Shown: piece by piece, positions 7,414 to 21,835 of the stretch
Layout of the letters: each line of letters begins with the position of its first letter
Position numbering within the stretch: the stretch's first letter is position 1
DNA from: a virus
IMG/VR virus record: IMGVR_UViG_3300028146_000026
Location: 1 to 34,065 of that record
Length of the DNA: 34,065 nt
Strand: one strand, 5' to 3'
Notes under the pieces: generated by a model
Told to the model about the DNA's origin: nothing
Database searches by the model: none
What the model saw: only the letters and a program-made list of their open reading frames with translations
Made by a program: the position numbers and the translations under genes

Positions 7414-7415
7414 GC

Positions 7416-7432: not shown

Positions 7433-7470
7433 GTGGAACTCAAGTCCACGGCACCAGATGCACAATCTGC

Positions 7471-7499
7471 TTGACAGAAAATGTGCTTGTGGTGCACAA
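7471..7499 (+). promoter_or_regulatory. Rightward early promoter with operator 4
   Basis: TTGACA at 7471-7476 is followed after 17 bases by GCACAA (7494-7499), a weak -10. The perfect operator TGTGC-TTGTGGT-GCACA occupies 7482-7498, filling the spacer. The geometry mirrors the leftward promoter. Transcription would start at or very near the ATG of the Cro-like gene at 7508. Confidence 0.55.
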
Positions 7500-7507
7500 A
7501 GTGATTC

Positions 7508-7714
7508 ATGACCCTAGCAGACTGGATGACAAAGCACGGCTTCGATGATGCCAGCTTCGGTAAGCGTGTCGGAGTCGATAGAACCGCAATCTCCCGCATT
7601 AGGCGCGGAATCAATCGGCCATCCTGGGAGTTGGCGGCACGCATTAAAGCCGCCACCGGAGGGAAGGTATCGCCCGACGAGTTTCTGCCCCGCCCCTCCG
7701 AGGCTGCCGAATGA
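7508..7714 (+). CDS. Cro-like helix-turn-helix regulator
   Basis: A 68-residue protein with a compact XRE/Cro helix-turn-helix (residues ~12-52, DDASFGKRVGVDRTAISRIR). It is divergent from the repressor across a 94-bp region with two operators, the classic cI/cro arrangement. The ATG at 7508 has only a weak ribosome site (AAAGTG) and may be read from a very short leader. The stop overlaps the next ATG (ATGA). Confidence 0.75.
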   Translation: MTLADWMTKHGFDDASFGKRVGVDRTAISRIRRGINRPSWELAARIKAATGGKVSPDEFLPRPSEAAE

Positions 7715-7905
7715 TCGATCTCGTATGCACACAATTCGAGCGCGCCAGTAATTGGCGTGATGCTTACCAGGCGCATGTTTCGCCCCGTGCTGCATCGTGG
7801 CAGAAAATTGTCGGTAGTGTGACACCAACTGCGACATTTAGTCAATACCCTGTTGCAAAAGTTCCACTGAGTGATGCCATTATGCAACTGGGGGTTTTCA
7901 TATGA
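7711..7905 (+). CDS. Hypothetical protein after cro
   Basis: A 64-residue ORF joined by ATGA overlaps to both the Cro-like gene and the GIY-YIG gene, the main evidence that it is translated. No transmembrane segment or recognisable motif is present. The opposite strand is also open here, as an upstream extension of the repressor frame, but that reading lacks support. Confidence 0.5.
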   Translation: MIDLVCTQFERASNWRDAYQAHVSPRAASWQKIVGSVTPTATFSQYPVAKVPLSDAIMQLGVFI

Positions 7906-8225
7906 AAGGTTTCATCTACTTTTTCCAGTGTGAGCAGTTCATCAAGGTTGGCTTTGCCTTAGACCCCGCGGCGCGGCTCGCCATTCTTCAGATCGGATGT
8001 CCCTTCCCCATCTCGACACTTGCGCTGCATGCGGGACGCCTCACGCAAGAAAAGAAATTGCACAGACTTCTGGCTAACCATCGCCACCACGGCGAATGGT
8101 TTCGCGATCATCCTGATGTTCGTCAGTTTGCCGAGAGCGGCCCTCCCGCAATTGATGATTCCCCAAAACCAACGTTAATTCCCCCGCCTGTGCAGTGGCC
8201 ATCCGTTCTCATGGGGAGAATGTGA
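7902..8225 (+). CDS. GIY-YIG-like nuclease domain protein (T5orf172-like)
   Basis: A 107-residue protein with the pattern of the GIY-YIG superfamily branch that includes T5orf172: IYFFQ near the start, FIKVGFALDPAARLAILQIGCP (the Tyr-Ile-Gly-like strand and conserved Arg), then EKKLHRLLANHRHHGEWFR (Glu and Trp-Phe motif). It may be an endonuclease or a DNA-binding derivative. The first GIY Tyr is replaced in context by IYFF, so activity is uncertain. ATGA overlap with the preceding gene. Confidence 0.65.
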   Translation: MKGFIYFFQCEQFIKVGFALDPAARLAILQIGCPFPISTLALHAGRLTQEKKLHRLLANHRHHGEWFRDHPDVRQFAESGPPAIDDSPKPTLIPPPVQWPSVLMGRM

Positions 8226-8233
8226 TGCATAAA

Positions 8234-8407
8234 TCACGCACGCAACTTTGCCGCGATAGCGTTGGTCAGGCCGTTGGCGTCGATCGTTCCGCCGTTGCCA
8301 TGAACGATGTCTCTGACCTCGGCATCAGTCAGCAACCCCCTAATTTGCAGCAGAATCAGCAGCCGGCCGAGCATGGCCGCGAGCGCTTCCAGCTTCACTG
8401 TGTCCAT
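8234..8407 (-). CDS. Small antisense-oriented hypothetical protein
   Basis: A 57-residue protein with a Leu-rich helical N-terminal half and an acidic middle (LTDAEVRDIV). GAGGGAGGA lies eight to ten bases before the ATG at 8407, a very good ribosome site. It runs against the surrounding operon and is divergent from the gene at 8446. A competing plus-strand ORF (8225-8449) has an unnatural Gln/His-rich composition. No family is recognised. Confidence 0.6.
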   Translation of the reverse strand: MDTVKLEALAAMLGRLLILLQIRGLLTDAEVRDIVHGNGGTIDANGLTNAIAAKLRA

Positions 8408-8445
8408 GAGCAATCCTCCCTCTCGTCGCACGCGGATGATGCCCG

Positions 8446-8814
8446 ATGAGCTTTGCTGTCGCAAATCCAGTCAATGAACAGCAGTTCGGCAAATCCGCAC
8501 CGCTGTTCGGTCATTGGGATCGGCTGCACGATCTCATCCGCAGCCTTTGGCCTACCAAGACTTCGGTGCATCTCGCTCATGCGGCTAAGCTTTCACAGCG
8601 AGCGGCCGAGCTTTCGTTGGCCGAGCGACGGCAGTTCGCCCCAGACACCCTAGTCGCCCTCCTCGACACGCCTCACGGCCCCGATGTGTTGATGGCTCTC
8701 CTTGAGCATTCGGAGCAGCCGTGGGTGAAAGACTTCAAGAAAATCGTGCAGCTCGAAAAGCTCAAAGCTCAACAAGCAGAACTCCAGAAACGTATCGACG
8801 CTCTATCCAAATAA
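8446..8814 (+). CDS. Hypothetical protein with possible HTH (LWPTKT type)
   Basis: A 122-residue helical protein with LWPTKTSVHLAHAAKLSQRAAE, followed by a helix pair, a pattern I have seen in small rhizobial phage proteins that look like degenerate helix-turn-helix regulators. The C-terminal 30 residues are a Lys/Gln-rich coiled coil. The start is ATG at 8446 with GGATG upstream. A regulatory role is possible; the function is unassigned. Confidence 0.62.
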   Translation: MSFAVANPVNEQQFGKSAPLFGHWDRLHDLIRSLWPTKTSVHLAHAAKLSQRAAELSLAERRQFAPDTLVALLDTPHGPDVLMALLEHSEQPWVKDFKKIVQLEKLKAQQAELQKRIDALSK

Positions 8815-8826
8815 GCGGGAGAAAAC

Positions 8827-8922
8827 ATGACGCTTTGGTTAGCGCGGCTATTCCAGCGCATCGCCGGCTATTTTATAGCGCGGGCCGAGAAACAAAATAC
8901 GAAACGGAGGAGATCGTTTTGA
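8827..8922 (+). CDS. Short ORF upstream of gcrA, 31 residues
   Basis: A 31-residue basic amphipathic peptide (TLWLARLFQRIAGYFIAR near the start). GGGAG lies five bases before the ATG at 8827 and the stop overlaps the TTG start of gcrA as TTGA. It could be a leader peptide that couples gcrA translation, or a real small membrane-associated protein. Confidence 0.5.
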   Translation: MTLWLARLFQRIAGYFIARAEKQNTKRRRSF

Positions 8923-9368
8923 ATTGGACAATTGAGCGCGTTGAACGTCTCACGACCATGTGGGCGGAAGGGTTATCAGGCGGACAGATCGCAGCAGAAC
9001 TTGGTGACGTATCGAGGAATGCCGTAATCGGAAAAGCCCACCGCCTTAAACTAGCCAAACGCATGAATGTCGCCATGCCAAGAGCCAAGCCAGAACCGCG
9101 CATTCACAAACGCCAGCGTTTCCGCGAGGTAAAGCCACTATTCGAGGAATTACGTGATAATCCCCCAACGGTTGACGAGGCAAAACTTATTGCCGAATTG
9201 TGCGCTCAGCCAAATGAGATACAGGGCTGCACGTTGATGGAATTGACGGAAAAGACATGCCGTTGGCCGCTATGGGATGATGTGGTGTCGGATCAGTATT
9301 GCGGGGCGAAGCCGGTTGTCGGCTCCTCATATTGTCCAGTCCATTCCAAAAAGGCATGGCGCCGATGA
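8919..9368 (+). CDS. gcrA: GcrA-like cell-cycle transcription regulator
   Basis: A 149-residue homologue of GcrA, the alphaproteobacterial regulator that binds sigma-70 and CcrM-methylated GANTC promoters. The N-terminal helix-turn-helix (residues 2-45) contains WTIERVERLTTMWAEGLSGG and AVIGKAHRLKL. The C-terminal domain has the sigma-binding motif TCRWPLWD and paired cysteines (CG and YCPVH). I chose TTG at 8919: GGAGGAG lies seven bases upstream and NWT is the family start. The frame continues to 8721, but that extension overlaps the previous gene. It is expressed in the early/middle operon and is well placed to activate late transcription at 14244-14280. Confidence 0.9.
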   Translation: MNWTIERVERLTTMWAEGLSGGQIAAELGDVSRNAVIGKAHRLKLAKRMNVAMPRAKPEPRIHKRQRFREVKPLFEELRDNPPTVDEAKLIAELCAQPNEIQGCTLMELTEKTCRWPLWDDVVSDQYCGAKPVVGSSYCPVHSKKAWRR

Positions 9369-9547
9369 CCGGCAAGGAGGCCATCGCGCTGTCCGGTCGC
9401 AGCGAGACATGGCTGCGCCGACACTCATGCTCATGGTGCGAGCAAACGCTCTGGCGCGCGCTGACCGTAGGATGCGGCTCGATTTACGAGCGCTGTAATC
9501 CCACCTTCAAAAATTTTCATACTGATATAAGGCTGCCCAGAGAATGA
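9365..9547 (+). CDS. Small cysteine-rich, possibly zinc-binding protein
   Basis: A 60-residue protein with CSWC, a later Cys in VGCGS and a last Cys in YERC, giving four potential zinc ligands in about 28 residues. The N-terminal EAIALSGRSETWLRRH may be a helix-turn-helix. The start at 9365 and the end both form ATGA overlaps with gcrA and the next gene. No family is assigned. Confidence 0.62.
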   Translation: MTGKEAIALSGRSETWLRRHSCSWCEQTLWRALTVGCGSIYERCNPTFKNFHTDIRLPRE

Positions 9548-10074
9548 CCCCGCTGCGCGCCAGACTAATGAATCCACCCAATGCCGTGCCTGACACCGGC
9601 ATAAACCTGCGCAATGGTCGTCCGGTGCTCAAGGTCGCGCCGCTGCCCAAACCGGAACCGTCACGATGGAAAATGCCGACGCTGACCCTCGTCTGGGAAG
9701 TGACGCCGTATGAGCCGCCAGATACTTACCGAGTTGTCGCAACTCCGCCGGGATATTCCAAGCCAAAAGCAACCGCGATATTAATCATCAACGAAATCTG
9801 TGCGGCGTGGGGCATCCCACAATATAGGCTTGTGGGAGATGAGCGCTTTAGCGAGATCGTGCGACCCCGTTGGGCTGCGATGGCGATCATCCGGCGAATA
9901 ACGCCGTTGAGCTATCCCCAGATCGCCAAATTTGTCGGCAAGCGCGACCATTCATCGGTCATGAGCGGCTGTAGGAAGATGGATGACCATATCGCTGCGT
10001 TGGATCAGGAACTCAGTGATTGGAGCAGCCCCGCCGAATGGGTGCGGGCGCTCAAGGCGAGGATCGAGGCATGA
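9544..10074 (+). CDS. DnaA domain IV-like DNA-binding protein
   Basis: A 176-residue protein whose residues ~80-150 resemble the C-terminal DNA-binding domain of DnaA: WGIPQYRLVGDERFSEIVRPR, then SYPQIAKFVGKRDHSSVM and SGCRKM, paralleling the DnaA signature GRDHTTVLHACRKI. There is no AAA+ ATPase domain. Such proteins could bind an origin or act as regulators. It lies between the Cys-rich gene and the RusA-like gene with ATGA overlaps on both sides, consistent with a replication module. Confidence 0.75.
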   Translation: MTPLRARLMNPPNAVPDTGINLRNGRPVLKVAPLPKPEPSRWKMPTLTLVWEVTPYEPPDTYRVVATPPGYSKPKATAILIINEICAAWGIPQYRLVGDERFSEIVRPRWAAMAIIRRITPLSYPQIAKFVGKRDHSSVMSGCRKMDDHIAALDQELSDWSSPAEWVRALKARIEA

Positions 10075-10484
10075 GCGTTCTTGCCAAAGCGGAAGCGTTA
10101 GTAGCAGCAGCCTGCCCCGATAGGATGACCGGCACCCCGTGGCTGGAATTCGAAATACCCTGCCCGCCGTCGTGCAATCGATTTGTCTCAAGGCTCGGCA
10201 ATAAGACGCCGGGCGTCCGAGCCTGGTCGAGACAGGCAGATATGGCCTTCATGGCGTCGCCGACTAAACTTTTCCGCATTAAAGGAAAATTCGAAGCCGA
10301 GTTCCTATTCGGTCGCGATCGATCGGATTTCCACAATCGAGAGAAGTGCTTGTTCGATTGGCTCCAATCACGCGAGTTCGTTGAAAACGACAAACTGTGC
10401 GAATGGCGTGCGTCGGGATGGAGCGATGACGTGCCGAAGGGGCGGGTGAAGGTGCGGCTTAGGCCGTGGGCGACAACCCCATGA
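10071..10484 (+). CDS. RusA-like Holliday junction resolvase
   Basis: A 137-residue protein with the RusA-type organisation: an N-terminal IPCPPSCNRF strand, then FGRDRSDFHNREKCLFDWLQ with acidic residues D83, D86, D96 and Lys92, and VENDKL with D107. RusA enzymes cut four-way junctions during phage replication and recombination. The spacing around the first Asp pair differs from the usual DxDN, so activity should be considered likely rather than certain. The start at 10071 overlaps the previous stop (ATGA). Confidence 0.72.
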   Translation: MSVLAKAEALVAAACPDRMTGTPWLEFEIPCPPSCNRFVSRLGNKTPGVRAWSRQADMAFMASPTKLFRIKGKFEAEFLFGRDRSDFHNREKCLFDWLQSREFVENDKLCEWRASGWSDDVPKGRVKVRLRPWATTP

Positions 10485-10639
10485 TCTGTCCCGTCGTCAA
10501 ATACGTCCGCCATAGCCGCGTCGAGGACCATCTGCGCCTCGGGTGGATGGTCCTGGCCGAGCTGGGACCGACGCATGGCGAGTGGTCGATCCTCATGGGC
10601 TTCTGTTGTGACTGCAAACTCGTGGAGCCTTTGCCATGA
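10481..10639 (+). CDS. Small CCDC-motif protein
   Basis: A 52-residue ORF with Cys3 near its N-terminus, GEWS, and a C-terminal CCDC, giving possible metal ligands. It is bounded by ATGA overlaps with the RusA-like gene and the next gene, strong evidence of translation. Small proteins with the pattern LGWMV...GEWS...CCDC are familiar from rhizobial phages, but no function is known to me. Confidence 0.65.
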   Translation: MICPVVKYVRHSRVEDHLRLGWMVLAELGPTHGEWSILMGFCCDCKLVEPLP

Positions 10640-11205
10640 GTGCCGGGGCCTCCACCATGTGGTTTTGGTCGGACTGGCTCGGCGACCAGGAAGTGCGTCG
10701 GCTCACACCAGCGGAGCGCGGAGTATGGATTGATTTGCTGGCACTCGCGGCAGCGGCCGCACCTTACGGTTATGTCTGCGATGGTAAAGGGAGTCCACTG
10801 ACCCTCGAGGAGATTGCCCGCGTGACGAACGCCGGCTCTCCAGATGAGGTGGGCAAGCTCATCGCAGGGATACTGGAAAAGGGCGCCGCCAGCCGTGACC
10901 GCACCGGGCGGTTATTCAACCGGCGCATGGTGCGCGAAAAAGCACTGTCACGAAAAAGGTCTGAAGCAGGCAAGTTGGGAGGTAAGTCAACCGCAAACAA
11001 ACATTGGGGAAAAAACCACTTGCTACAGCACCTGCCACAGCAATTGCTACAGCATGGGTGCTACGCCCCATACCTTAAGAAAGTAAGTAAGAAAGAAAGC
11101 TTTTCTTTCTCTGGGACGAGTCAGAGCGCGCCGCCCCTTCCCGAAGGGGCAACCGAGGAAGAAAGCGAGCTTTCCCGCCTCGTCAAAGCGAAGGGCTGGA
11201 AATGA
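10636..11205 (+). CDS. DUF1376/replisome-organiser-like protein
   Basis: A 189-residue protein whose first ~90 residues resemble the winged-helix region of phage replication-initiation proteins such as DUF1376: WFWSDWLGDQEVRRLTPAE, then WIDLLALA and LTLEEIARVTN. The middle is basic (KALSRKRSEAGKLGGKS) and the C-terminal 60 residues look disordered. It may load host helicase or organise the replisome. ATGA overlaps join it to both neighbours. Confidence 0.62.
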   Translation: MSAGASTMWFWSDWLGDQEVRRLTPAERGVWIDLLALAAAAAPYGYVCDGKGSPLTLEEIARVTNAGSPDEVGKLIAGILEKGAASRDRTGRLFNRRMVREKALSRKRSEAGKLGGKSTANKHWGKNHLLQHLPQQLLQHGCYAPYLKKVSKKESFSFSGTSQSAPPLPEGATEEESELSRLVKAKGWK

Positions 11206-11318
11206 CCCCCGACCTCAAATTCTCCCTCGGCCTAGCGGCGACGGGATTGGCCCTGCTGGGGCTGGTCATCATCGCCCTGCTGGTGGCGGGGCAAATCTAC
11301 GTGGAGATGCCGCGATGA
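11202..11318 (+). CDS. Small single-span membrane protein, 38 residues
   Basis: A 38-residue ORF with one hydrophobic helix (about residues 8-31; Leu/Ala/Gly/Ile-rich). It is bounded by ATGA overlaps with the replication-like gene and the NusG-like gene, so it is probably translated. No function can be assigned. Confidence 0.6.
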   Translation: MTPDLKFSLGLAATGLALLGLVIIALLVAGQIYVEMPR

Positions 11319-11815
11319 CTGAATGGCACGCTGTCAAATCGAGGCCGGGCGCCGAGGGCAAGGCGCTCATCGGCATCGAAGCTTGCGGAATAACCGGGTT
11401 TCTCCCAGTGGAACTCGTCCGTATCAACCACCGAACCGGTCCGGAGACCACTTGGCGGGCGCTCTTCCCCGGATACCTCTTTGCCAGATGCGACCTCGGA
11501 CGCGATTTCTCCCGAATTCTGGAGATCGACGGGATCGAGGACATCCTAAGGGGCCGCCACGGGCCTACGCCGGTCGCTGATGCGGCAATCGAGGCCATCC
11601 GTAGTGCGGAGAGGGCCGGTGCATTTGACAGAACCAGGACCCCACGGCTGGCCCATGGCGACGATGTGGTAATTGGGGACGGTCCGTTTGCCCATCTGGT
11701 GGCCAAAATCAAGTGCGAGCGACCGACCAAGAGGATGGCGCGCTGCATGGAGCTTGTGGGCAATTTCCCGTTCAGGTTGACGGCATCAACGAACAAGGTG
11801 GAGAAGGTGGCATGA
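11315..11815 (+). CDS. NusG/RfaH paralogue (NGN-KOW transcription factor)
   Basis: A 166-residue protein with an N-terminal NGN domain (WHAVKSRPGAEGKA, then FLPVELVRI and ALFPGYLFARCDL, the family hallmark) and a C-terminal KOW segment (LAHGDDVVIGDGPFAHLVAKI, about residues 111-131). NusG-family proteins bind RNA polymerase and alter pausing and termination; specialised paralogues such as RfaH act on particular operons. In this phage it may allow readthrough of the structured late leader at 14285-14381. Housekeeping NusG is normally near 175-180 residues. ATGA overlaps on both sides. Confidence 0.82.
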   Translation: MTEWHAVKSRPGAEGKALIGIEACGITGFLPVELVRINHRTGPETTWRALFPGYLFARCDLGRDFSRILEIDGIEDILRGRHGPTPVADAAIEAIRSAERAGAFDRTRTPRLAHGDDVVIGDGPFAHLVAKIKCERPTKRMARCMELVGNFPFRLTASTNKVEKVA

Positions 11816-12093
11816 ACAGACGAGGATTCTTTGCAGCGCTGGCGACTTTGCCATTGGCTCCGGTGGCACTCAAGGCGGAATCGCCGTCGGTCGATTTGAA
11901 GTTTGGGCCGCTGCCTAAGCGCTTGATAGACAAATTTCGAGAACGGGCGCTAGCGCTCAGCAATGAGCCGCGTCTATTGCCGTCCCCCTGGCCTCCGGAA
12001 ATGCTGGAAGCTCTACGTCGCGATCTGAAGGAAGCGCGTCGCATGGAAAGGTTTCGCGCACATGCGGCGATGAAAACCATTGAATGGACCTGA
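11812..12093 (+). CDS. Hypothetical protein with Tat-like signal
   Basis: A 93-residue protein beginning NRRGFFAALATLPLAPVA, which has the twin-arginine and hydrophobic features of a Tat signal with a possible cleavage after ALKA. The rest is basic and helical with no recognised domain. It is ATGA-coupled to the NusG-like gene. An exported product inside a replication/regulation operon is unexpected. Confidence 0.6.
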   Translation: MNRRGFFAALATLPLAPVALKAESPSVDLKFGPLPKRLIDKFRERALALSNEPRLLPSPWPPEMLEALRRDLKEARRMERFRAHAAMKTIEWT

Positions 12094-12872
12094 CAGCCAT
12101 GAAGATCACAGCGTTTAGCGCCGCCCTTGATCGGGCTGGCTTCGACAGAGCATTGTTTGATCTACGGGCGATAGCAGAGAATTTCATCAAATCAGGCGGC
12201 ACGCGAGATGCCTGGATGCGGGCTTTTGATGTCGCCGCAGGAATGCTGGGCGAGGACCATCTGCCGATTTTCCGACAGGACCAGACCAGTCGCGTCCCCG
12301 TCCAGCAGCCTAATGCGAGCGAGGAGGCCAATTCCAGTGTGCCCGCCGGGGCCACGACCCACCTGCCTCCCGCTCGCAACCCAATGCTGGATGAGGGCCA
12401 TGCGATCTCTGCTCACGAGAGCCCTACGAGCGCCGCCCCCATCCGGCAGCCAGATCGGAGTGAGGGCCATACGGAGGATGTCCAACAGGACCACCGTATA
12501 GGCGCCCCCACTCCGACCCCCATCACGAGCGGGAAGGCCGTTGGCAAGTCGCCCGTAAGGGCCGGTCACACCATGCCTCCCGCTCGTGAACCTTCTCGCG
12601 GATTCATCAATGCCACGATAGCCGCAAACCAAACCGCGGCTCGCTCGGTGCTGCACACGGTCAAGACCAGTGATGGCCGATGGTGGGCTGAGGTTTGCCC
12701 CTATGAGGTTAACGCCATGCAGCGCGACGCAATTCGTGGCATGGCGCTTCTATCGGCATGCGGTGCCCTGAATGATCGCCAGTCGAGAATGACATTTGGC
12801 GAGTTGCTTAGCCCAGAACGCGCAAAGCTGGCCCTCGACCAGGCGCAGAAGGAGCTTGGCCATGTCGCGTGA
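12084..12872 (+). CDS. Hypothetical protein with disordered, repetitive centre
   Basis: A 262-residue protein. The N-terminal ~60 residues are helical, the centre (~65-170) is Pro/Ala/Thr-rich and disordered, and the C-terminal ~90 residues form a globular domain (WWAEVCPYEVNAMQRDAIRG). The 13-base sequence TGCCTCCCGCTCG occurs twice in the centre (12364-12376 and 12574-12586), and GAGGGCCAT also recurs, so the linker has probably expanded by duplication. It overlaps its neighbours by about ten bases each. No family is recognised. Confidence 0.62.
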   Translation: MDLTAMKITAFSAALDRAGFDRALFDLRAIAENFIKSGGTRDAWMRAFDVAAGMLGEDHLPIFRQDQTSRVPVQQPNASEEANSSVPAGATTHLPPARNPMLDEGHAISAHESPTSAAPIRQPDRSEGHTEDVQQDHRIGAPTPTPITSGKAVGKSPVRAGHTMPPAREPSRGFINATIAANQTAARSVLHTVKTSDGRWWAEVCPYEVNAMQRDAIRGMALLSACGALNDRQSRMTFGELLSPERAKLALDQAQKELGHVA

Positions 12873-13632
12873 GATCATAGACGCGATCACGGCCCTTCAT
12901 CGTAAGCGTAACTTTGCAATGGAGCAGCGCAAGCGCGCCAATCTAGCGCTCGGCGCGTTCCTTCGGCTGGCGCTTGGCTGGCGCAAAGACCTTCCAGACC
13001 TTGAGCGCAAGCGCATCGCCAATCAGGCGGACGAATGGATGGAAACCGGAGAAGGGCCATTCATAGACATCTTGGCGGCTTCAGACCTCGCCCGCGCGCC
13101 TTATGAGAAGATTGAGAAGGACTGCCTGCGAGAGATGGAAAGGCTAGCGAAGCAATTGCCGATATGGGCGGCGTTCGGCGAACCGGTCCGGGGCTTCGGC
13201 GCCGCGTCACTCGCGGTGATCGTGGCGGAGGCGGGCGATCTCAGCATCTATGCCACCGAGGCCAAGCTGTGGAAGCGCATGGGCCTTGCTGTGATCGACG
13301 GCAAGCGCCAGGGCGGCCTACCGAAGAACGCCGGGGCTGAAGCGTGGATCGAGCATGGTTACAGTCCGCTGCGCCGCTCGCGCATGTGGAACATTGGAGA
13401 CGCGCTGATCAAGGGCAATCGGGACGGTAAATATCGCACCTCATATCTGGCCCGTAAAGAGATCGAGCTACAGCGCAACCCGGAGATGAGCAAAATGCAT
13501 ACGCATCGCCGGGCTCAGCGGTACATGGAAAAACGTCTGCTGCGAGACTTGTGGCGGGCGTGGCGGCGGATCAGCGTAGGGGTGGCCGAAAGGCCCAGAG
13601 CCGCCAAATCTTCCCGTGGCATTGACAGATAA
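12862..13632 (+). CDS. Protein with IS110/IS116-type helix-hairpin-helix domain
   Basis: A 256-residue protein whose middle (about residues 90-150; PVRGFGAASLAVIVAEAGDL then KLWKRMGLA) resembles the C-terminal helix-hairpin-helix domain of IS110/IS116/IS902 transposases (Transposase_20). The DEDD catalytic domain of those transposases is absent, and no insertion-sequence ends are visible, so this is probably a domesticated DNA-binding phage protein. I chose ATG at 12862 with AAGGAG upstream rather than the longer frame from 12796. Confidence 0.62.
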   Translation: MSREIIDAITALHRKRNFAMEQRKRANLALGAFLRLALGWRKDLPDLERKRIANQADEWMETGEGPFIDILAASDLARAPYEKIEKDCLREMERLAKQLPIWAAFGEPVRGFGAASLAVIVAEAGDLSIYATEAKLWKRMGLAVIDGKRQGGLPKNAGAEAWIEHGYSPLRRSRMWNIGDALIKGNRDGKYRTSYLARKEIELQRNPEMSKMHTHRRAQRYMEKRLLRDLWRAWRRISVGVAERPRAAKSSRGIDR

Positions 13633-13646
13633 GCTGAAATAGGTGC

Positions 13647-13787
13647 ATGACTAGTTCAGTCGGCTATTGGGCTCACACCTTTCGGGTGACCAAGGTCGGC
13701 CGCGATCATGACCGCGATCGCATAGGGCTGATGGCAAAATTGCCTCGCCCGGCGGAAGAATTACCCCAAATCCCGAGGCCAGCATGA
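13647..13787 (+). CDS. Small hypothetical protein, 46 residues
   Basis: A 46-residue ORF with AGGTGC before the ATG and an ATGA overlap with the next gene. The first half is basic with VTKVGRDHDRDRIG and the end is Pro-rich. A minus-strand ORF covers the same DNA but lacks a ribosome site. No family is recognised. Confidence 0.48.
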   Translation: MTSSVGYWAHTFRVTKVGRDHDRDRIGLMAKLPRPAEELPQIPRPA

Positions 13788-14227
13788 CCCTCAGCGCCAA
13801 ATCCCTCCACCGTTCGGGTTCCATTTCGGACAAACAAATGGCCAAGCTGCAAGTCTTGAGGGGCACTAAGGCTCAGAAATCCAAGATGGCGCCATTCGAG
13901 CAGAAAACCAAAGACGAGGGCCACCAGCGCAACAAGGGCATCCCCGAAATGCGCGTGAACGAGATCAACAATGGTCGCGTCCAGGACAAAGGCGGCAGCT
14001 TCGGAGTCGGAGGCAAACGCGGCCCGCCCTCGAAAGGCGGCCGAGCCGGGCCGGAAGGCCAGACTCACGTCGACGAGATCGATCGCGCTGACTATCAGCG
14101 GCCCAAATTCCCCGCGGGAGGCAACGTCAAAGCTTCCAATCCGAAGACCGGGAACACGAAAATGAAGGCCAAGCGCAAGCAGCCCTCGCTGCCGATGTAT
14201 GGTAAATTCGGAGGCCGGCCGGCGTGA
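13784..14227 (+). CDS. Basic, low-complexity hypothetical protein
   Basis: A 147-residue protein rich in Lys, Gly, Arg and Gln and probably disordered. Its N-terminus has SGSISDKQMAKL, resembling ISDKQHEKM in the protein at 14631-14864, so the two may share an interaction motif. It is the last gene before the candidate late promoter. It may be a minor virion or nucleic-acid-binding protein. Confidence 0.58.
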   Translation: MTLSAKSLHRSGSISDKQMAKLQVLRGTKAQKSKMAPFEQKTKDEGHQRNKGIPEMRVNEINNGRVQDKGGSFGVGGKRGPPSKGGRAGPEGQTHVDEIDRADYQRPKFPAGGNVKASNPKTGNTKMKAKRKQPSLPMYGKFGGRPA

Positions 14228-14243
14228 CCGTCTTTCGGTTCGC

Positions 14244-14280
14244 TTGACTTGACGAATCGAGGTGATTCGCCCATATAAAG
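14244..14280 (+). promoter_or_regulatory. Candidate late promoter with paired GANTC (CcrM/GcrA) sites
   Basis: TTGACG (14249-14254; TTGACT also at 14244) is followed after 17 bases by CATATA (14272-14277), overlapping TATAAA at 14274-14279. The spacer holds GAATC (14254-14258) and GATTC (14264-14268), an inverted pair of CcrM methylation motifs, and a third GANTC lies at 14301. GcrA-controlled promoters in Caulobacter carry methylated GANTC close to the -10/-35 elements. With gcrA encoded upstream, this looks like the switch to packaging and virion genes. Confidence 0.62.
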
Positions 14281-14284
14281 GGAC

Positions 14285-14381
14285 GAGCAGGCAAGCGCTG
14301 GATTCACCCCGAGTTGCCCTCACGGGCGGCAGCACCCTCAGCGGTGTGGATCAGGGGCCAGGGGCCTGCTCATTCTTTTTT
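14285..14381 (+). ncRNA. Structured leader RNA of the late operon, possible attenuator
   Basis: The predicted transcript starts at about 14284-14286. GAGCAGG (14285-14291) is complementary to CCTGCTC (14365-14371), which is followed by a six-T run (14376-14381). Inside, GCCC-TCAC-GGGC and CACC-N6-GGTG form small hairpins. The 5' end thus closes a multibranched fold ending in a terminator-like T run. It may be an attenuator or an RNA that modifies polymerase. This is inferred from complementarity only. Confidence 0.42.
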
Positions 14382-14416
14382 GGCCTGTTACCCCGCTATG
14401 GTTCTGGGAGGTCTAA

Positions 14417-14626
14417 ATGCCCGCCACAGTCCCGCAGGCCACCGCAGTCGTTACCGCAATCACCGCGCTCCAGGCGAGCGCGAACAATATCGTCGCTGCG
14501 ACTTCTGCCGCTCAGCGGGCAAACGGTCCCGTGACGCCCGCCATGCAGGCCGCCCTCACAACCCTCAACACTGATCTTGCCGCCGCCCTCGTCCTCGCCA
14601 ACATCGTCCTCACGAATACGCCGTAG
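14417..14626 (+). CDS. First late gene, small Ala/Thr-rich protein
   Basis: A 69-residue helical, Ala/Thr/Asn-rich protein with no transmembrane helix. GGGAGG lies six bases before the ATG. It is the first gene after the structured leader. Composition and position fit a small virion-associated protein; no family is recognised. Confidence 0.62.
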   Translation: MPATVPQATAVVTAITALQASANNIVAATSAAQRANGPVTPAMQAALTTLNTDLAAALVLANIVLTNTP

Positions 14627-14630
14627 GCCC

Positions 14631-14864
14631 ATGCCCAGCGTTTCCCAAGCCCAATCCAGACTGATGGCCGCCGCAGCCCATACCCCAGGCGGCTATGGCG
14701 GCGTGCCCCAATCAGTCGGCAAGGAATTCAACGAGGCAGACACCGGGAAGAAGAGATCAGCGCTCCCCAAGCGCGTCGGACATCTGCGCAAGCGCGGAAT
14801 GATCTCGGACAAACAGCACGAGAAAATGGAAAGCCGCAGCAAAGAGCGGATGGAAAGGCGGTAA
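14631..14864 (+). CDS. Small basic protein, DUF3008-like start
   Basis: A 77-residue basic protein starting PSVSQAQSRLMAAAAHTPGG, the type of SxxQxxLM start seen in small phage proteins such as DUF3008. The C-terminus is very basic with ISDKQHEKM. The ATG at 14631 follows the previous stop by four bases. The function is unknown. Confidence 0.6.
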   Translation: MPSVSQAQSRLMAAAAHTPGGYGGVPQSVGKEFNEADTGKKRSALPKRVGHLRKRGMISDKQHEKMESRSKERMERR

Positions 14865-14870
14865 TGGAAT

Positions 14871-15230
14871 ATGGGCGCTGATCGGGCTCTCAGAAAGCAT
14901 GTTGGTGGGTCAGTTGATATGGCGTGGGAGCTAAAAGCCCGCTCCATGATCAAGTCAAGCAATGTTCTTAAGAAATTGATCTCTCATGCAAATGGAGATT
15001 GCCCGCTTGAGCCTTCCCAGGTTACCGCAGGGATTGCTTTAATGCGCAAGGTCTTGCCTGATCTCACGTCGTCTGAGGTCACCGGAGAAGTCGTTCACCG
15101 ATTTGCGATGGTGCCGCAGGTCATGCCGAAAGAACAATGGCTTGCGACACGAGGCGATCCATCGAAGCTCATTGAGCATCAGCCGATCGAGCCTGAGAAG
15201 CCGAAGGACCCGAATAGCAAGTTGAATTAG
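14871..15230 (+). CDS. Terminase small-subunit-like phage protein
   Basis: A 119-residue protein with a core LEPSQVTAGIALMRKVLPDL near residues 46-65, a pattern common in short phage proteins encoded just before the large terminase, often suggested to be small terminase subunits. No clear helix-turn-helix is visible. Position supports a packaging role, but homology is not certain. It ends in a convergent TTAG overlap with the minus-strand gene at 15227. Confidence 0.5.
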   Translation: MGADRALRKHVGGSVDMAWELKARSMIKSSNVLKKLISHANGDCPLEPSQVTAGIALMRKVLPDLTSSEVTGEVVHRFAMVPQVMPKEQWLATRGDPSKLIEHQPIEPEKPKDPNSKLN

Positions 15231-15424
15231 GCTTTGGCTCTCCGTTTCCGCATGTACTCGCGCATATAGGCGACCTTATCGAACTTGGGCGCAGACTTCA
15301 GATAGGACTCCAGCGCGTCGCATATGAGTTTGACATCGTCGTCGCGCACGACCCGCCATGCACCATTACGTAATCGGGTGCGACTGCGCAATCGGGCGAT
15401 GGCCTCGCGGAGTTGGGTGGTCAT
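15227..15424 (-). CDS. Moron-cassette gene 3, small basic protein
   Basis: A 65-residue helical, Arg/Lys-rich protein (ending AYMREYMRKRRAKA), which may bind nucleic acid. The ATG at 15424 overlaps the previous stop (ATGA). It is the last gene of a three-gene minus-strand unit inserted into the packaging region. No family is recognised. Confidence 0.6.
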   Translation of the reverse strand: MTTQLREAIARLRSRTRLRNGAWRVVRDDDVKLICDALESYLKSAPKFDKVAYMREYMRKRRAKA

Positions 15425-15636
15425 CGATATGCAGCCGTGTTCTCGCACTTCGCAACAATGGTGCAGCCGGGATTGAGATCGCGGATCGAGGCGCGAACCA
15501 TATCGAGGCTCGCTGACGCGCCAAATGCAGTCGGGATTGTCGCTGTACCGAACAGCGACTCAACGTGACAAGCATGGGGGCCGCTAAAGGTTGCGACCCA
15601 TCCGGTGGGCAGGCGAGTGAGTCTGATCTTGTTCAT
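15421..15636 (-). CDS. Moron-cassette gene 2, hypothetical protein
   Basis: A 71-residue soluble protein, probably mixed alpha/beta (LPTGWVATF and LFGTATIPTAFGA). GGGGAACGGA lies upstream of the ATG at 15636. The upstream 14-mer GGAACACGGGGAAC is repeated before gene 1 of the cassette. No function is known. Confidence 0.6.
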   Translation of the reverse strand: MNKIRLTRLPTGWVATFSGPHACHVESLFGTATIPTAFGASASLDMVRASIRDLNPGCTIVAKCENTAAYR

Positions 15637-15675
15637 GTCCGTTCCCCGTGTTCCTATTCGCGGCGGGTGGAAGGT

Positions 15676-15852
15676 TTAGGCAGCTTCCTCTGCCTCTTGC
15701 ATGAGGCGAGCCGCGGTCATCGGTGAATAATTGGCGTTGTAGTAGTAGCGCGCATCGCCAAATCCAGCCTCGGCCGCGTTAAGAGTAGCAAGCTCTTTAT
15801 TGAGAAGTTGCCACCAATCGCCAAATGCCCAAGTATCGTTTTCTCTGGTCAT
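15676..15852 (-). CDS. Moron-cassette gene 1, small acidic protein
   Basis: A 58-residue acidic, Trp/Tyr-rich protein (WAFGDWWQLLN and ARYYYNANYSP). The ATG at 15852 follows GGGGAACACGGAA. It is the first gene after a leftward TTGACA promoter. The composition recalls small phage inhibitors, but this is speculation. Confidence 0.58.
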   Translation of the reverse strand: MTRENDTWAFGDWWQLLNKELATLNAAEAGFGDARYYYNANYSPMTAARLMQEAEEAA

Positions 15853-15883
15853 TTCCGTGTTCCCCGTGTTCCCGTGTTTCGAT

Positions 15884-15917
15884 GTAGTAAGACTATCATA
15901 GTCTAACGGGATGTCAA
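15884..15917 (-). promoter_or_regulatory. Leftward promoter and palindromic operator of the moron cassette
   Basis: On the minus strand, TTGACA (15917-15912) is followed after 16 bases by a weak -10, TAGTCT. The perfect palindrome AGACTAT-C-ATAGTCT (plus strand 15890-15904) covers the -10 region, suggesting control by a repressor. The operator differs from the immunity-region operator. Confidence 0.48.
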
Positions 15918-16020
15918 CAGGGATTTTGAAAAATATGATCGCCCACTTGAGGTAATATGGCTATGTCGCCCTTGCCATCTTTTAGAACATCGAACGTGAA
16001 ACCCCGAAAGGAGTAACACC
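15918..16020. other. AT-rich intergenic leader before the packaging genes
   Basis: This stretch holds AT-rich sequence with TAATAT near 15953 as a possible rightward -10, but no convincing -35. AAAGGAG just before 16021 is the ribosome site of the next gene. No GANTC site or strong hairpin is visible. Confidence 0.35.
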
Positions 16021-16218
16021 ATGGTCGCACATGCCCATCACGAAGATGAACCAAAGGCACCGAAGGTCAAGGAGCCGACCTTCGCCGAGCGCGCACAGGC
16101 CTTGCTCGATCACGTCAACCATTCGGCGGAGCACAACGCCCCGATGACGAAGCAAGTCGTTGACGAGCTAACGGCGGTCCTGAATGGCCTCATGGGGCAC
16201 AAGACGCCGCACGCCTGA
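16021..16218 (+). CDS. Small hypothetical protein before the large terminase
   Basis: A 65-residue His/Lys/Glu-rich helical protein (AHAHHEDEPKAPKVKEP at the start). AAAGGAG lies eight bases before the ATG. It sits three bases upstream of the large terminase. It may assist packaging, but no family is recognised. Confidence 0.62.
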   Translation: MVAHAHHEDEPKAPKVKEPTFAERAQALLDHVNHSAEHNAPMTKQVVDELTAVLNGLMGHKTPHA

Positions 16219-16221
16219 TGT

Positions 16222-17682
16222 ATGAACGCCCCGATCGCTAGCTGCGTCTGGACGGCACAGGACGGCCCCCAGACCAGCCTGATCAACTGCCCGATATTCG
16301 AGGTGTTCTATGGAGGAGCGCGCGGTGGAGGTAAAACTGATGGTGTCTTGGGTGAATTCATTCGGCACGCATCAGACTATGGAGCGGACGCTATCGGGAT
16401 CATGTTTAGACGCGAACGTACCCAGCTTATTGAAACTATTGAACGCTCACGATCCATCTATTTACCCCTCGGATGCCAATATCACGAACAGGATAAGGTC
16501 TGGCGATTCCCCAACGGAGCGCGACTGAGGTTCGCATACCTCGAAAGAGACGCCGATGCGGAGGCCTATCAGGGACACTCTTACAGCCGGGTCTATGTGG
16601 AAGAGATCGGAACATTTCCCACCGAGGGACCTGTTCTTAAGCTCATGGCAACCCTCCGATCAGGCGCTGGCGTTCCTGTGGGATTTAGAGCAACCGGCAA
16701 TCCTGGGGGTCCGGGCCATCTCTGGGTCAAGCGTCGCTACATTGATGGTGCACCCGGCGGATGGCGGCTCATCGTTGATCCACTGACGGGGCTTGAGCGC
16801 ATCTACATCCCGTCGCGGGTCAGCGACAATCATTACCTCGGTCCCGACTATGTGCAGCGATTGCGGGCGTCCGGTTCTGCGGAGCTTGTCCGCGCCTGGC
16901 TAGAGGGCGACTGGAATGCGATCGAAGGGGCGTTCTTCCATGAGTGGTCGCAAAAGAACGTTGTGGCGCCATTCGTCATTCCCCGAGACTGGATACGATT
17001 TCGGTCAGGAGATTGGGGTTCTGCTAGCCCGTTTAGTATCGGCTGGTGGACGGTCGTCCAAGATGATCATTACCTTGAAGAGGCCATGCTGCCCCGCGGA
17101 GCACTCGTTCGTTATCGAGAATGGTACGGTACGGACAATCCTGCGGCCGGGGGAAAGGGCCTCAAGCTGACCGCCGAACAGGTCGGCGACGGCATAGCCA
17201 AGCGTGAAGCGAACGATCCCAAGCTAGCCTATGGCGTCATGGACCCGTCCGCATTCAAGGAAGACGGCGGTCCATCGATCATGGAGCGATTGAATGGCAG
17301 GCTCACAGCGGCAGGACTTGCTGCGTTTCGTGCGGCAGACAATACACGAGTCGCAAGTGGCGGAAGCCATGATCGACGCGGCCCTATGTCAGGTTGGGAT
17401 GCAATGCGCGCACGCATCCTTGGAAAAGGCAACCGCCCAATGGTGTTCTGCTTTGACACGTGCGTTGCTTCAATACGAACAATCCCTGTACTCCAGCACG
17501 ACCCTGACAAAGCCGAGGACCTCGACACCGAGTCAGAGGACCATGCGGCCGACGACTGGCGCTATGCGTGCAGCTCCCGGCCATGGCGCCGGTTCATAGA
17601 GCCGCCCGATCCTGCCAAGGATGCCTACCGCGTGCCTAACGATGACATGGATGGCGTGTCGAGTAGCGTGAAACTCCTATGA
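16222..17682 (+). CDS. terL: Terminase large subunit
   Basis: A 486-residue DNA-packaging motor. The N-terminal ATPase has Walker A GGARGGGKT (residues 31-39) and a Walker B-type RVYVEEIG (~123-130); RATGNPGG (~156-163) fits the coupling motif. The C-terminal nuclease shows Asp264 in RSGDWGSASP and Asp341 in GVMDPSAF, in an RNase H-like fold. No good Shine-Dalgarno precedes ATG 16222, so coupling with the previous gene is likely. Length is normal for the family. It cuts and translocates genomic DNA into proheads at the portal. Confidence 0.93.
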   Translation: MNAPIASCVWTAQDGPQTSLINCPIFEVFYGGARGGGKTDGVLGEFIRHASDYGADAIGIMFRRERTQLIETIERSRSIYLPLGCQYHEQDKVWRFPNGARLRFAYLERDADAEAYQGHSYSRVYVEEIGTFPTEGPVLKLMATLRSGAGVPVGFRATGNPGGPGHLWVKRRYIDGAPGGWRLIVDPLTGLERIYIPSRVSDNHYLGPDYVQRLRASGSAELVRAWLEGDWNAIEGAFFHEWSQKNVVAPFVIPRDWIRFRSGDWGSASPFSIGWWTVVQDDHYLEEAMLPRGALVRYREWYGTDNPAAGGKGLKLTAEQVGDGIAKREANDPKLAYGVMDPSAFKEDGGPSIMERLNGRLTAAGLAAFRAADNTRVASGGSHDRRGPMSGWDAMRARILGKGNRPMVFCFDTCVASIRTIPVLQHDPDKAEDLDTESEDHAADDWRYACSSRPWRRFIEPPDPAKDAYRVPNDDMDGVSSSVKLL

Positions 17683-17969
17683 TGATTGGCGCACACCAGC
17701 CCATTCATGAGGCGAATAAGGGCGTCGATTTCTGGTTAGACCGGACCTTGGAACGGCGGAAACAGGATTGCGCAAGAACGACCCTGCACAACATCGACGC
17801 GCTTATGGGAACTGATGCGATCGCGGATTTCAAACTCTGGCGCATCGCAATGGCTCGCCGCGGTGAGCATGTATGCGGCGACGGCCGCGATCAATTCATC
17901 GAAGAAATGAAGGCCAGCCAAGCACGATTGCTTCGGTGGACAACATTGAGTCGGATATGGGGTAACTGA
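17679..17969 (+). CDS. Hypothetical protein between terminase and portal
   Basis: A 96-residue helical protein joined to terL by an ATGA overlap and to the next gene by TGATG. Two cysteines and several Trp residues are present, with no recognised motif. Conserved position in the packaging operon is the only clue to function. Confidence 0.6.
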   Translation: MMIGAHQPIHEANKGVDFWLDRTLERRKQDCARTTLHNIDALMGTDAIADFKLWRIAMARRGEHVCGDGRDQFIEEMKASQARLLRWTTLSRIWGN

Positions 17970-18340
17970 TGGGCGAAGCCAAACGCAAGCGCCGAGAGGC
18001 GACGATTGAGGATTTGATGGCGGCGCAAGTCGCGCCTGTCATCGCACAGGACGACATCCCGCCGAACCTCAACGTCTTCGCCACCATGGAAGCCGCATGG
18101 AATGATCTCGTTGACCGCTGGTTCCATGAAGGCATGCCGGACAAGCTCAAGCAGGATGGCAAGTTCATCTTCTATCATGGCGTGCAGGCCGCAGCGAACC
18201 TGATGATGTACTGCGAGGGCCAGGACATGTTCGGCGCCGCGGCTGATCAGGTGCAGGGCGATTGCATCGCCTATGAGAAGGAAGCCGAGGCCGTGCTTGC
18301 AGAGCGTAAGGCTGACGAATGGCGCACGGGGGAAATCTGA
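17969..18340 (+). CDS. Hypothetical protein with MGEAKR start
   Basis: A 123-residue acidic helical protein beginning GEAKRKRREATIEDL. The first residues match the start of the portal gene (GEAKRRSE), and the DNA around both starts is nearly identical. The C-terminus contains CEGQDMFGAAADQVQ. No domain is recognised. Confidence 0.62.
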   Translation: MGEAKRKRREATIEDLMAAQVAPVIAQDDIPPNLNVFATMEAAWNDLVDRWFHEGMPDKLKQDGKFIFYHGVQAAANLMMYCEGQDMFGAAADQVQGDCIAYEKEAEAVLAERKADEWRTGEI

Positions 18341-18341
18341 G

Positions 18342-18590
18342 ATGATCTGCAATTGCTGCGGGCGCGATGACGACTGCCGGATGGGCATCTGCTTTGATTG
18401 CGCGACCGCAGCAGAGATCAGGGCATCGAAGCGATCGGTGTTGCAGCATGTCGGAAAGGCTCTGGGCCATCTCAGGCGTGGCGATTTCACATTCGCTCGT
18501 ATCTCTTTGGCTTGGGCGTGGGAGCGGCTGACCAAGACCGGAGATTACGCGCCCGGTGGGGAATTTGAGGGCTACCGTGGGCGAAGCTAA
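18342..18590 (+). CDS. Small zinc-ribbon-like protein
   Basis: An 82-residue protein whose first 20 residues contain CNCCG, DDCRMGICFDC, giving six cysteines in the spacing of a zinc ribbon or treble clef. GGGGGAA lies eight bases before the ATG. The rest is helical. Its end overlaps the portal start by 14 bases. It may bind nucleic acid or protein; no family is assigned. Confidence 0.65.
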   Translation: MICNCCGRDDDCRMGICFDCATAAEIRASKRSVLQHVGKALGHLRRGDFTFARISLAWAWERLTKTGDYAPGGEFEGYRGRS

Positions 18591-20562
18591 GCGTCGTTCT
18601 GAGATAGCATCAAGAGACGAAGACTGGGACGGCGACGAGCAAGGCTTCCTGCCGGTATCGCGGCTGCGCGAGAAGTACATTGGATATCTTACAGTTAAGG
18701 TCCAAGAGTATGAAGAACAGAAGTTGTCTAGACATTACTATCATGGTGCACAATGGACACCCGAGGAAATCCGCATCCTCAGACAGCGCCGGCAGCCTAT
18801 CATCACGTTCAATGAGATATCTACAAAGATTGACAATCTGGTATGGATTGCCCAGCGATTCAGGGCCGATCCAAAGGCGTACCCCCGCAACCCGAAGAAT
18901 GCTTCAGGTGCCGAGATTGCCACTCAATGCGTGCGGTCCGTGCTGGACGGCTGCGAGTGGTCGTACCTTGATAGCTACTGTGCTGGCCAAGCAGCCACGG
19001 AGGGAATAGCTGGCATCGAACTCAAGCTCATCGAAGGGGATCATGGTGACCCAGACATCTCTGCCGACTTTATCTTTGGTGACGACTTCTTCTATGATCC
19101 TACCTCATTTAAGCCCGACTTTTCAGACGCCAGATATAAGGGCATCAGCAAATGGCTTCATGAAGAGGCAGCTATTGAACTCTTCCCCGACAAGGAAGAA
19201 CAACTTCGATCCCTGATGGTGGAGACGGGCTTCGACCTGACCACTCACGCCGATCGTGAGTTCAAATGGGTGTATGCAAATGAGCACCGCGTACGGCTTG
19301 TTGAGCATTGGTACAAAAACCGGGGCAAGTGGCATTGGGCCTTCTATGTCTCCAATCTCCTGCTCGATCAGGGCGTGTCTCCCTTCGTGGATCATCGCAA
19401 GCGGTCGACGGATCGCTTCATTATGTTCTCTGCCGCGGTCGATCACGACGGGGACCGTTATGGTTTCGTACGAAATCTTAAGGGTCCGCAAGACGAGGTT
19501 AACCAGCGCCGATCGAAGGCACTCCATATTAGCAATACGACACGCCTTACAGTCGAAAAGGGCGCTGTTGACGATGTGGAGACGACTCGGCGTGAGAACG
19601 CGCGCCCTGACGGTGTTGTTGAATACAACAAAGGCTTCGAAGCTCCCAAAGAAAAGGACAAGCAAGAAGACCTATCGGCGCATCTCGCCCTCATGCAGGA
19701 CGCAAGGCAAAAAATCGTTGGTTTTGCCAATATCATGCCGGATCGTGTCACTGCGGCTGAGCAAGGTGAGCATTCCGGCGTGGCGATCGATCGCCTCCAA
19801 AAGGCTGCATCCGCTGACCTCGGCACGTTCCTGCGCAATTACAAGTCGTGGAAGATGCGCGTATACCGGGCCGTCTGGTCCGCGATCCAACATAATTGGA
19901 AGGCGGAGCGTTATATCCGCGTGAACTCTGGCAATGATGAACTCGTCCAGTTCCTCCAGATCAACGCACTTACAGTGAACGAATGGGGCCAGCCTACCAT
20001 TCAGAACATGGTGGGTTCGATTGATGTCGATATCGTCATGGATGAGGGGCCTGACACCGCGAACCTGATGCAGGACGCGTACGAGGTCATCAAGGACGAT
20101 CCGACCATCCCGTGGGCTGTGAAGCTTGAATTCATGCCCATGCCAGCCAGCTTCAAGCAATCGCTGCTGCAAAAGATTCAGCAGCAGAGCCAGCAGCCCG
20201 ATCCCAAGATGCAGGCTGAACAGATCAAGGCTCAGGTGGCCCAGCAAAAGGGCCAGGCCGACATTCAGAAAGCGCAGGTATCCGCCGAGGCTGAGAAGTT
20301 CAATGCGCAGCAGGATGCTATGGCGCGGGTGCAGGATCAGCAACAGGCCCGCGAACAGCATATCAGCGACATGCGTATTGAGGCGATGCGCATCGAAGGC
20401 GAGCGCGAGAAAATCCATATGCAGATCGAGCAGGCTCGGCAGCAGCATATCTTCGATATGGCCGAGCTGCGGGAGCAACACATCACGCGCAAGGCCGACC
20501 ACGAGATGAAGCGCAAGGAAATTGCGATGCGACCCAAGCAGAAGGCAAAGGCATCCGCATGA
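18577..20562 (+). CDS. P22-type portal protein
   Basis: A 661-residue homologue of the podovirus P22 portal family: SRLREKYIGYLTVKVQEYEE, then RQPIITFNEISTKIDNLVW near the start, GDDFFYDPTSF in the middle, and a long Gln-rich coiled coil (residues ~530-650) like the P22 portal barrel. It forms the dodecameric DNA channel at one head vertex and binds the terminase. I chose GTG at 18577 (GAGGG seven bases upstream); GTG at 18556 is an alternative. It is followed by the exported fibre cassette and not directly by the scaffold, unlike P22. Confidence 0.88.
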   Translation: MGEAKRRSEIASRDEDWDGDEQGFLPVSRLREKYIGYLTVKVQEYEEQKLSRHYYHGAQWTPEEIRILRQRRQPIITFNEISTKIDNLVWIAQRFRADPKAYPRNPKNASGAEIATQCVRSVLDGCEWSYLDSYCAGQAATEGIAGIELKLIEGDHGDPDISADFIFGDDFFYDPTSFKPDFSDARYKGISKWLHEEAAIELFPDKEEQLRSLMVETGFDLTTHADREFKWVYANEHRVRLVEHWYKNRGKWHWAFYVSNLLLDQGVSPFVDHRKRSTDRFIMFSAAVDHDGDRYGFVRNLKGPQDEVNQRRSKALHISNTTRLTVEKGAVDDVETTRRENARPDGVVEYNKGFEAPKEKDKQEDLSAHLALMQDARQKIVGFANIMPDRVTAAEQGEHSGVAIDRLQKAASADLGTFLRNYKSWKMRVYRAVWSAIQHNWKAERYIRVNSGNDELVQFLQINALTVNEWGQPTIQNMVGSIDVDIVMDEGPDTANLMQDAYEVIKDDPTIPWAVKLEFMPMPASFKQSLLQKIQQQSQQPDPKMQAEQIKAQVAQQKGQADIQKAQVSAEAEKFNAQQDAMARVQDQQQAREQHISDMRIEAMRIEGEREKIHMQIEQARQQHIFDMAELREQHITRKADHEMKRKEIAMRPKQKAKASA

Positions 20563-20798
20563 GGACCGTTCTCGCGCTAGCGCTGATGACATCGCCTGCA
20601 ATGGCGCAGAACTCATTCCCGACCCCAGGCAATGCGTCGGTCCCTGGCATTCTTCTCATGTGTCTTGTCAATGGCCGGGCCGTTCCATGCTCCGGGACGG
20701 TCACGGGGGATGATTCCAGTTTTACGACGCCTGGGAATTCCCAGGTCGGCGGTGGCGTGCGGATGTGTATCATCAACAATCAGGCGGTCCCATGCTGA
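20559..20798 (+). CDS. Small exported protein with two copies of a disulfide module
   Basis: A 79-residue protein with a clear Sec signal peptide (cleavage after AMA, about residue 16). The mature part is two ~25-residue copies of a module F-x-TPGN-x-x-V-x-G...MC-[LI]-x-N-x-[RQ]-AVPC. A third copy begins the next gene. Two Cys per copy suggest disulfides. ATGA overlap with the portal gene. No family is recognised. Confidence 0.68.
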   Translation: MRTVLALALMTSPAMAQNSFPTPGNASVPGILLMCLVNGRAVPCSGTVTGDDSSFTTPGNSQVGGGVRMCIINNQAVPC

Positions 20799-21835
20799 AA
20801 GCTTTGCGCCATCTCTGGCTTCTAGCCGTGTTGGGCTTCACGCCCGCGGCTGCACAGGATCACTTCTTCCCAACGCCTGGCAATGCCATCGTTCCCGGCT
20901 ATGTAACGATGTGCATCGTCGCTAACCAAGCTGTTCCCTGCACACCAGCGAGCGGCAGCAGCATCATCTCGGGCACGACGCCAACGACGGGCTGCGGCGC
21001 GCAAGGTGTGCTATTCAGCAATGCTGGAGTAGTCGGATGCGATACGGCTTTTACCTATGCTGGGGCGGGCGGAACATTGAAAGTTCCAAACGCCATCACC
21101 AACACAGCAGGTAATATTACCATCACTCCCGCGGGAGAGTTGCGCGTGATCGCAACGAATACGGTTCGGCTAAACGCTGACACCATATATTTTAACAATA
21201 CGGCAACTACCACTGTCATGGGCATGTTGACTGCCGTGACAGGCGTTGGAACCAATGGCGTTATCGCTTGGGTGGATAATACTGGCTCAGCGTTCCCCGG
21301 CCGCATGGGCTTTGGCGGCTTTACCGCTGCGTTCCCTGCCATTGCCCGCAATGGTACGCAAATGCGGATTGTGCTGGCAGACGGCAGCGCTGCGGCGCCT
21401 CTGAGCGCTGGCGTGATCTCTGCCAGCCTTGCCTCAGCCACGGGTACGAACGCCGTTTGCAACACGCCCGGCACAGAAACAGCCCTGACCGTTCAGGTGT
21501 GGGCAACCGGTTGCGCAGCCTCCTCAGCACGCTTCAAGGAAGGCATCGCATCGATTGATCGGGTGAAGGCCCTAGATGACGTGATGCGCTTCGAACCGGT
21601 CTCGTACACCTACAAGCCCGAGTTCAACATGGGCTCGGACAAGCATATCGGCTTCACCGCTGAGCAAATCGGCAGCGTCGATCCGCAATGGATCACTTAC
21701 GAGAATGACGGCGTCACACCGCACGCGGTCAAGTATAACGAGATGGCCCCGCTGCTCGTCTCCGCTATCCAGCAACTCAAGGCCGACAATGACAACCTAC
21801 GTGCTGAGATAGAGGCACTGAAGGCGCGACGATGA
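20792..21835 (+). CDS. Exported tail fibre/spike with C-terminal S74 chaperone
   Basis: A 347-residue protein. It has a signal peptide (cleavage after PAAA), one copy of the TPGN...AVPC module (residues ~25-52), a Gly/Thr/Asn-rich beta region, and a C-terminal intramolecular chaperone of the peptidase S74 type (ARFKEGIASID, HIGFTAEQIG, VKYNEMAPLLVSAIQQL, then a coiled coil). S74 domains trimerise phage fibres and then cleave themselves off. I chose ATG at 20792, overlapping the previous stop. Confidence 0.78.
   Translation: MLKALRHLWLLAVLGFTPAAAQDHFFPTPGNAIVPGYVTMCIVANQAVPCTPASGSSIISGTTPTTGCGAQGVLFSNAGVVGCDTAFTYAGAGGTLKVPNAITNTAGNITITPAGELRVIATNTVRLNADTIYFNNTATTTVMGMLTAVTGVGTNGVIAWVDNTGSAFPGRMGFGGFTAAFPAIARNGTQMRIVLADGSAAAPLSAGVISASLASATGTNAVCNTPGTETALTVQVWATGCAASSARFKEGIASIDRVKALDDVMRFEPVSYTYKPEFNMGSDKHIGFTAEQIGSVDPQWITYENDGVTPHAVKYNEMAPLLVSAIQQLKADNDNLRAEIEALKARR

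Follow-up and report, generated by a model that had tools for sequence, protein, structure and literature searches.

Which transcript starts from the promoter-like sequence at 14244-14280 of the viral record IMGVR_UViG_3300028146_000026, and do the GANTC sites within it place this transcript under the control of GcrA? The whole stretch of 34,065 nucleotides that was analysed is referred to as the window. In the preliminary description the sequence was taken for a late promoter activated by a phage-encoded GcrA, through which the late genes would read the methylation state of newly copied phage DNA. Our analysis led to another reading, which we consider probable: the promoter would belong to a self-contained orphan RNA moron and would probably be tuned by GcrA/CcrM, and it would not act as a late switch. 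The promoter and the RNA unit comprise the following features.

14249-14254, + strand: -35 element TTGACG (sequence, promoter scan)
14253-14259, - strand: GANTC site 1, CGAATCG, the reverse complement of which, CGATTCG, fits the YGAKTCK motif (PMC7987155)
14263-14269, + strand: GANTC site 2, TGATTCG, the exact extended GcrA motif (PMC7987155)
14272-14277, + strand: alternative -10 element CATATA with a spacer of 17, chosen in the preliminary description
14274-14279, + strand: -10 element TATAAA with a spacer of 19 (promoter scan; -10-like box common to the RNA family)
14286-14375, + strand: DUF3800-VII small structured RNA (RF02967), containing the third GATTC (Rfam covariance model)
14376-14386, + strand: U-rich tail past the closing helix, probable intrinsic terminator (sequence, fold)

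The sequence agreed with what was first noticed, in that GAATC (14254-14258) and GATTC (14264-14268) form an inverted pair in the spacer between TTGACG and CATATA, and the third GANTC was confirmed as GATTC at 14301-14305. In the promoter scan TATAAA was a better fit for the -10 element than CATATA. The two spacer sites are the arms of a perfect dyad, CGAATC-GAGGT-GATTCG (14253-14269), which was unique within the window at fewer than three mismatches. A repeated phage operator was rejected, as the dyad occurs only once in the window. Both spacer sites fit the extended motif YGAKTCK, of which only 13 sites exist in the 34 kb window, and the third GANTC (14301) does not.

Rfam identified one RNA in the window, DUF3800-VII, directly downstream of the promoter. 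The match to RF02967 spanned all 90 model positions with 65.5 bits compared to a gathering score of 36.2 (E-value 1.5e-11), and the first base of the RNA lies 6 nt past the TATAAA box. The minimum-energy fold of the window RNA contained the helices of the family. Since this fold was no more stable than those of shuffled sequences (z -0.31), the assigned structure is based on the family match together with covariation, which was detected in 10 of the 23 predicted pairs in an alignment of nine RF02967 members. The other eight members originate from Rhizobium phage RHph_TM3_3_3 (L079), a Rhizobium plasmid (L080), a viral contig (L096), one alphaproteobacterial genome (L078) and four genomes from the order of a Tateyamaria genome (L097-L100). 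Each of the nine RNAs (9/9) is preceded by a -10-like hexamer that ends 5-7 nt ahead of the RNA start, and for this reason we assign the promoter to the RNA; by this comparison across the family, the promoter spotted earlier is the RNA's own. The third GANTC can be ascribed to the RNA as well, because the RNA sequence accounts for it: two Rhizobium-phage-type RNAs read GAATC at the equivalent position. Exact DNA-pattern scans for the RNA gave no match in viral contigs and two matches in genome contigs, neither of which fits RF02967, and the family was absent from the 48 gcrA-bearing viral records searched.

The closing helix of the RNA is followed by a U-rich stretch, CATTCTTTTTT. A terminator scan gave a terminator-like match at 14355-14367, which was not above the regional shuffle expectation. 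As the U-run starts 5 nt beyond the stem, termination may be incomplete, with some read-through into the genes that follow, and we concluded that the RNA unit is probably self-terminating, perhaps leakily. Thus a sigma-70 promoter, TTGACG/TATAAA, would start the DUF3800-VII RNA at approx. 14286, and the closing helix and U-run would end transcription. We regard this part of the proposed mechanism as very likely, and the output of the promoter would then be the RNA and not the late operon.

The surroundings of the RNA unit were compared with those in related phages. The following features are needed for this comparison.

8919-9368, + strand: phage gcrA, 149 aa, with DNA-binding and sigma-interacting domains (Pfam, structure match)
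11315-11815, + strand: NusG-like transcription antiterminator (Pfam NusG 4.1e-11; phrog_6386 3.9e-18)
13784-14227, + strand: ORF immediately upstream of the cassette, kept in relatives
14228-14416, + strand: whole cassette (promoter, RNA and terminator), absent from the nearest relative
14417-14626, + strand: first ORF after the cassette, with 84% identity to its counterpart in L056/G001

When the phage collection was searched with positions 8000-24000, no DNA-level match was obtained. The closest relatives, found via the terminase (80-85% identical), were five phages of approx. 42 kb each. In the nearest of them, L056, the two flanking ORFs are approx. 10 nt apart, compared to 189 nt in the window, and on this ground we regard the cassette as an insertion. 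RF02967 was found in 0/5 relatives and gcrA in 5/5, and the order of the block formed by the nusG-like gene, the ORF at 13784 and the terminase was kept in all five. Independently transcribed units with a sporadic occurrence between phage genes are usually termed morons. Judged from this gene-by-gene comparison, 14228-14416 is an inserted small-RNA moron. The window further encodes an integrase (3038-4057) and an HTH repressor (7138-7887); the phage is probably temperate and its host probably alphaproteobacterial.

According to the original proposal, the phage GcrA activates this promoter and the late genes follow the methylation of phage DNA that has just been replicated. The location of gcrA upstream, the GcrA-type sites in the spacer and the late genes downstream on the same strand are in line with it, and in Brevundimonas a prophage operon that includes genes for a portal protein and a terminase was found to be GcrA-dependent (PMC7987155). 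However, the predicted transcript is a separate RNA, which ends in its own terminator-like U-run and does not fit a late promoter, and when related phages were compared the promoter was missing from all five relatives, although these retain gcrA and the same late-gene order. Nor was an N6/N4 methyltransferase found when the record of the window was searched, which left the late genes' reading of the methylation of newly copied DNA unsupported. Among gcrA-bearing viral contigs no excess of GANTC was detected at promoter-like sites (1.8% versus 2.7% in the control, score of at least 9). Newly copied DNA is hemimethylated, so that activation by GcrA should be lower on it, not higher; from the known biology of GcrA, the proposed direction would therefore oppose activation. 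We rejected the late-promoter model on account of the insertion and of the RNA having its own terminator-like end, and consider a GcrA late switch at this site highly improbable. Alternatively, the cassette could serve as a late leader resembling that of lambda pR', in which a short RNA ends at approx. 14386 and the NusG-like protein allows read-through into the late genes. A promoter, a structured RNA and a terminator do precede the late block, and the NusG-like antiterminator is encoded upstream of it. Against this, the relatives keep the nusG-like gene without a promoter or terminator at this site, and the eight other DUF3800-VII RNAs are stand-alone units facing a DUF3800 gene and not leaders of late operons, which makes such a leader unlikely. 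The NusG-like protein itself, which is encoded shortly before the late block and kept in 5/5 relatives, is likely a simpler candidate for late control than the promoter.

The RNA cassette could also be real and the GANTC pair a product of chance or an unrelated dyad, for instance an operator of a repressor dimer, with no role for GcrA; to this we assign somewhat less than an even chance. The perfect inverted repeat, with its arms about one helical turn apart, is what a dimeric repressor would bind, and seven of the nine homologous promoters contain no GANTC. Chance alone would moreover be expected to produce close pairs of GANTC at some place in a genome of this kind: for a pair at a distance of at most 10 anywhere we obtained P 0.63, an over-estimate since overlapping distances were allowed. 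On the other side, both arms fit the extended GcrA motif and lie within the spacer, and further copies of the dyad, as would be expected for a phage repressor, are missing from the window. GANTC is otherwise depleted: instead of once per 256 bp, as was first assumed, it occurred once per 598 bp, with 57 sites observed versus 166 expected from shuffles, a depletion of approx. threefold. With the promoter placed independently from the 5' end of the RNA, the probability of at least two GANTC in the spacer was ~4e-4, and that of two YGAKTCK sites ~2e-5 (Poisson model, dyad arms taken as independent). The spacer sites owe their significance solely to this independent placement of the promoter. Clustering of GANTC as a significant signal by itself was rejected, as a triple equally tight arises anywhere among 57 random sites with P ~0.14.

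The five relatives were depleted of GANTC too, approx. 1.8- to 7.6-fold relative to a second-order Markov expectation. Depletion was thus common to all six phage records and was strongest in G003, with 21 sites observed compared to 159 expected.

The gene at 8919 was indeed found to encode a full-length homologue of GcrA (PF07750; Pfam 2.6e-32, 112.8 bits), and residues 1-147 could be aligned with the Caulobacter GcrA structure 7ye1 (3.6e-18). Like gp222 of phiCbK-type phages (PMC3556154), it is a PF07750 protein encoded by a phage and has regions for DNA binding and for sigma interaction, but it occurs in a temperate phage with a record of 34 kb, and the promoter is only a putative target. 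In Caulobacter, activation by GcrA has been proposed to require TGATTCG, or more broadly YGAKTCK, while no preference for YGAKTCK was seen in Brevundimonas (PMC7987155). The GcrA-dependent mipZ promoter of Caulobacter contains two juxtaposed GAnTC sites, the mutation of which cripples its activity (PMC3667746). The promoter in the window resembles such GcrA/CcrM sigma-70 promoters in its two close GANTC sites, both fitting YGAKTCK, but differs from them in that it would drive a small RNA of a phage and is a predicted candidate. In a scan of the window and the five relatives it was the sole promoter-like site with two GANTC. We propose that CcrM would methylate the GANTC sites of the dyad and that GcrA would then tune the promoter, where either the host GcrA or the phage GcrA could be the acting protein. 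That the two spacer sites make the promoter responsive to GcrA when methylated by CcrM is, in our estimate, about an even bet.

The homologous promoters did not conserve the spacer sites. GANTC was present in the spacer of two of the nine RF02967 promoters, twice in the window and once in L078, and the genome of L078 gave no GcrA match. The four other RF02967 genomes carrying GcrA (4/4) had no GANTC in the spacer. In the five relatives, 5/149 promoter-like sites contained GANTC, and 2/19 at a score of at least 10, an excess too small to interpret. That phages with gcrA use GANTC promoters in general was rejected, given the frequency below that of the control.

The gcrA genes were only 25-37% identical among the window and G001-G005, compared to approx. 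78-92% for the terminase and major head proteins, which suggests that the phage gcrA is fast-changing or has been replaced. Close downstream of gcrA, 9544-10074 encodes a protein with the C-terminal DNA-binding domain of DnaA (PF08299, 1.6e-17), for which no tblastn match was obtained in the five relatives. Hence relatives of two cell-cycle regulators are encoded side by side.

At the eight other RF02967 loci the RNA and a DUF3800 gene are arranged tail to tail. The window RNA is like these in its full-length match, its helices and its -10-like box, and unlike them in the two GANTC sites of its promoter and in the missing gene: PF12686 (DUF3800) was not found in the record of the window or in the five relatives, whereas the Rhizobium phage, viral contig and plasmid records matched. 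Within its record the window RNA is an orphan, without a DUF3800 gene. This absence is firm only beside the RNA, as the record of ~34 kb is shorter than the ~42 kb of the relatives and may be incomplete. The RNA may act in trans as a structured RNA, whose usual partner, the DUF3800 protein, is missing here. DUF3800 has been predicted to adopt an RNase H-like fold in which the catalytic site is rearranged, and a link with putative ncRNAs was noted (PMC10910872).

Solitary phage RNAs that act as decoys are known from pseudo-ToxI (PMC3475682) and Racr (PMC10651486). Here as well, of the two components of a protein-RNA system of the host, the phage encodes the RNA and not the protein; in contrast to those cases, DUF3800 and its RNA are only a putative toxin-antitoxin or defence pair, and no PADLOC model matches these DUF3800 proteins. 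By analogy, the solitary RNA might be a decoy or antitoxin mimic directed against a host DUF3800-RNA system and expressed from a promoter gated by GcrA/CcrM, a speculative reading to which we give little credence. If it were true, only cells in the appropriate state of methylation and cell cycle would make the counter-measure. A GcrA-type promoter at this position would, if real, be an instance of a phage gene coupled to the methylation clock of Alphaproteobacteria. The RNAs of the DUF3800 type form an orphan class, and a phage cassette with the RNA only allows a direct test of trans action on a DUF3800 protein.

Two of the Rhizobium loci showed different states of the pair. In plasmid pRlX6 (L080:9997-10908) the DUF3800 match was partial (~207 nt) and apparently decayed, located ~600 bp from the RNA. 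Rhizobium phage RHph_TM3_3_3 (L079:9996-10917) carries a complete DUF3800 gene and the DUF3800-VII RNA beside a gene for an S24-family repressor.
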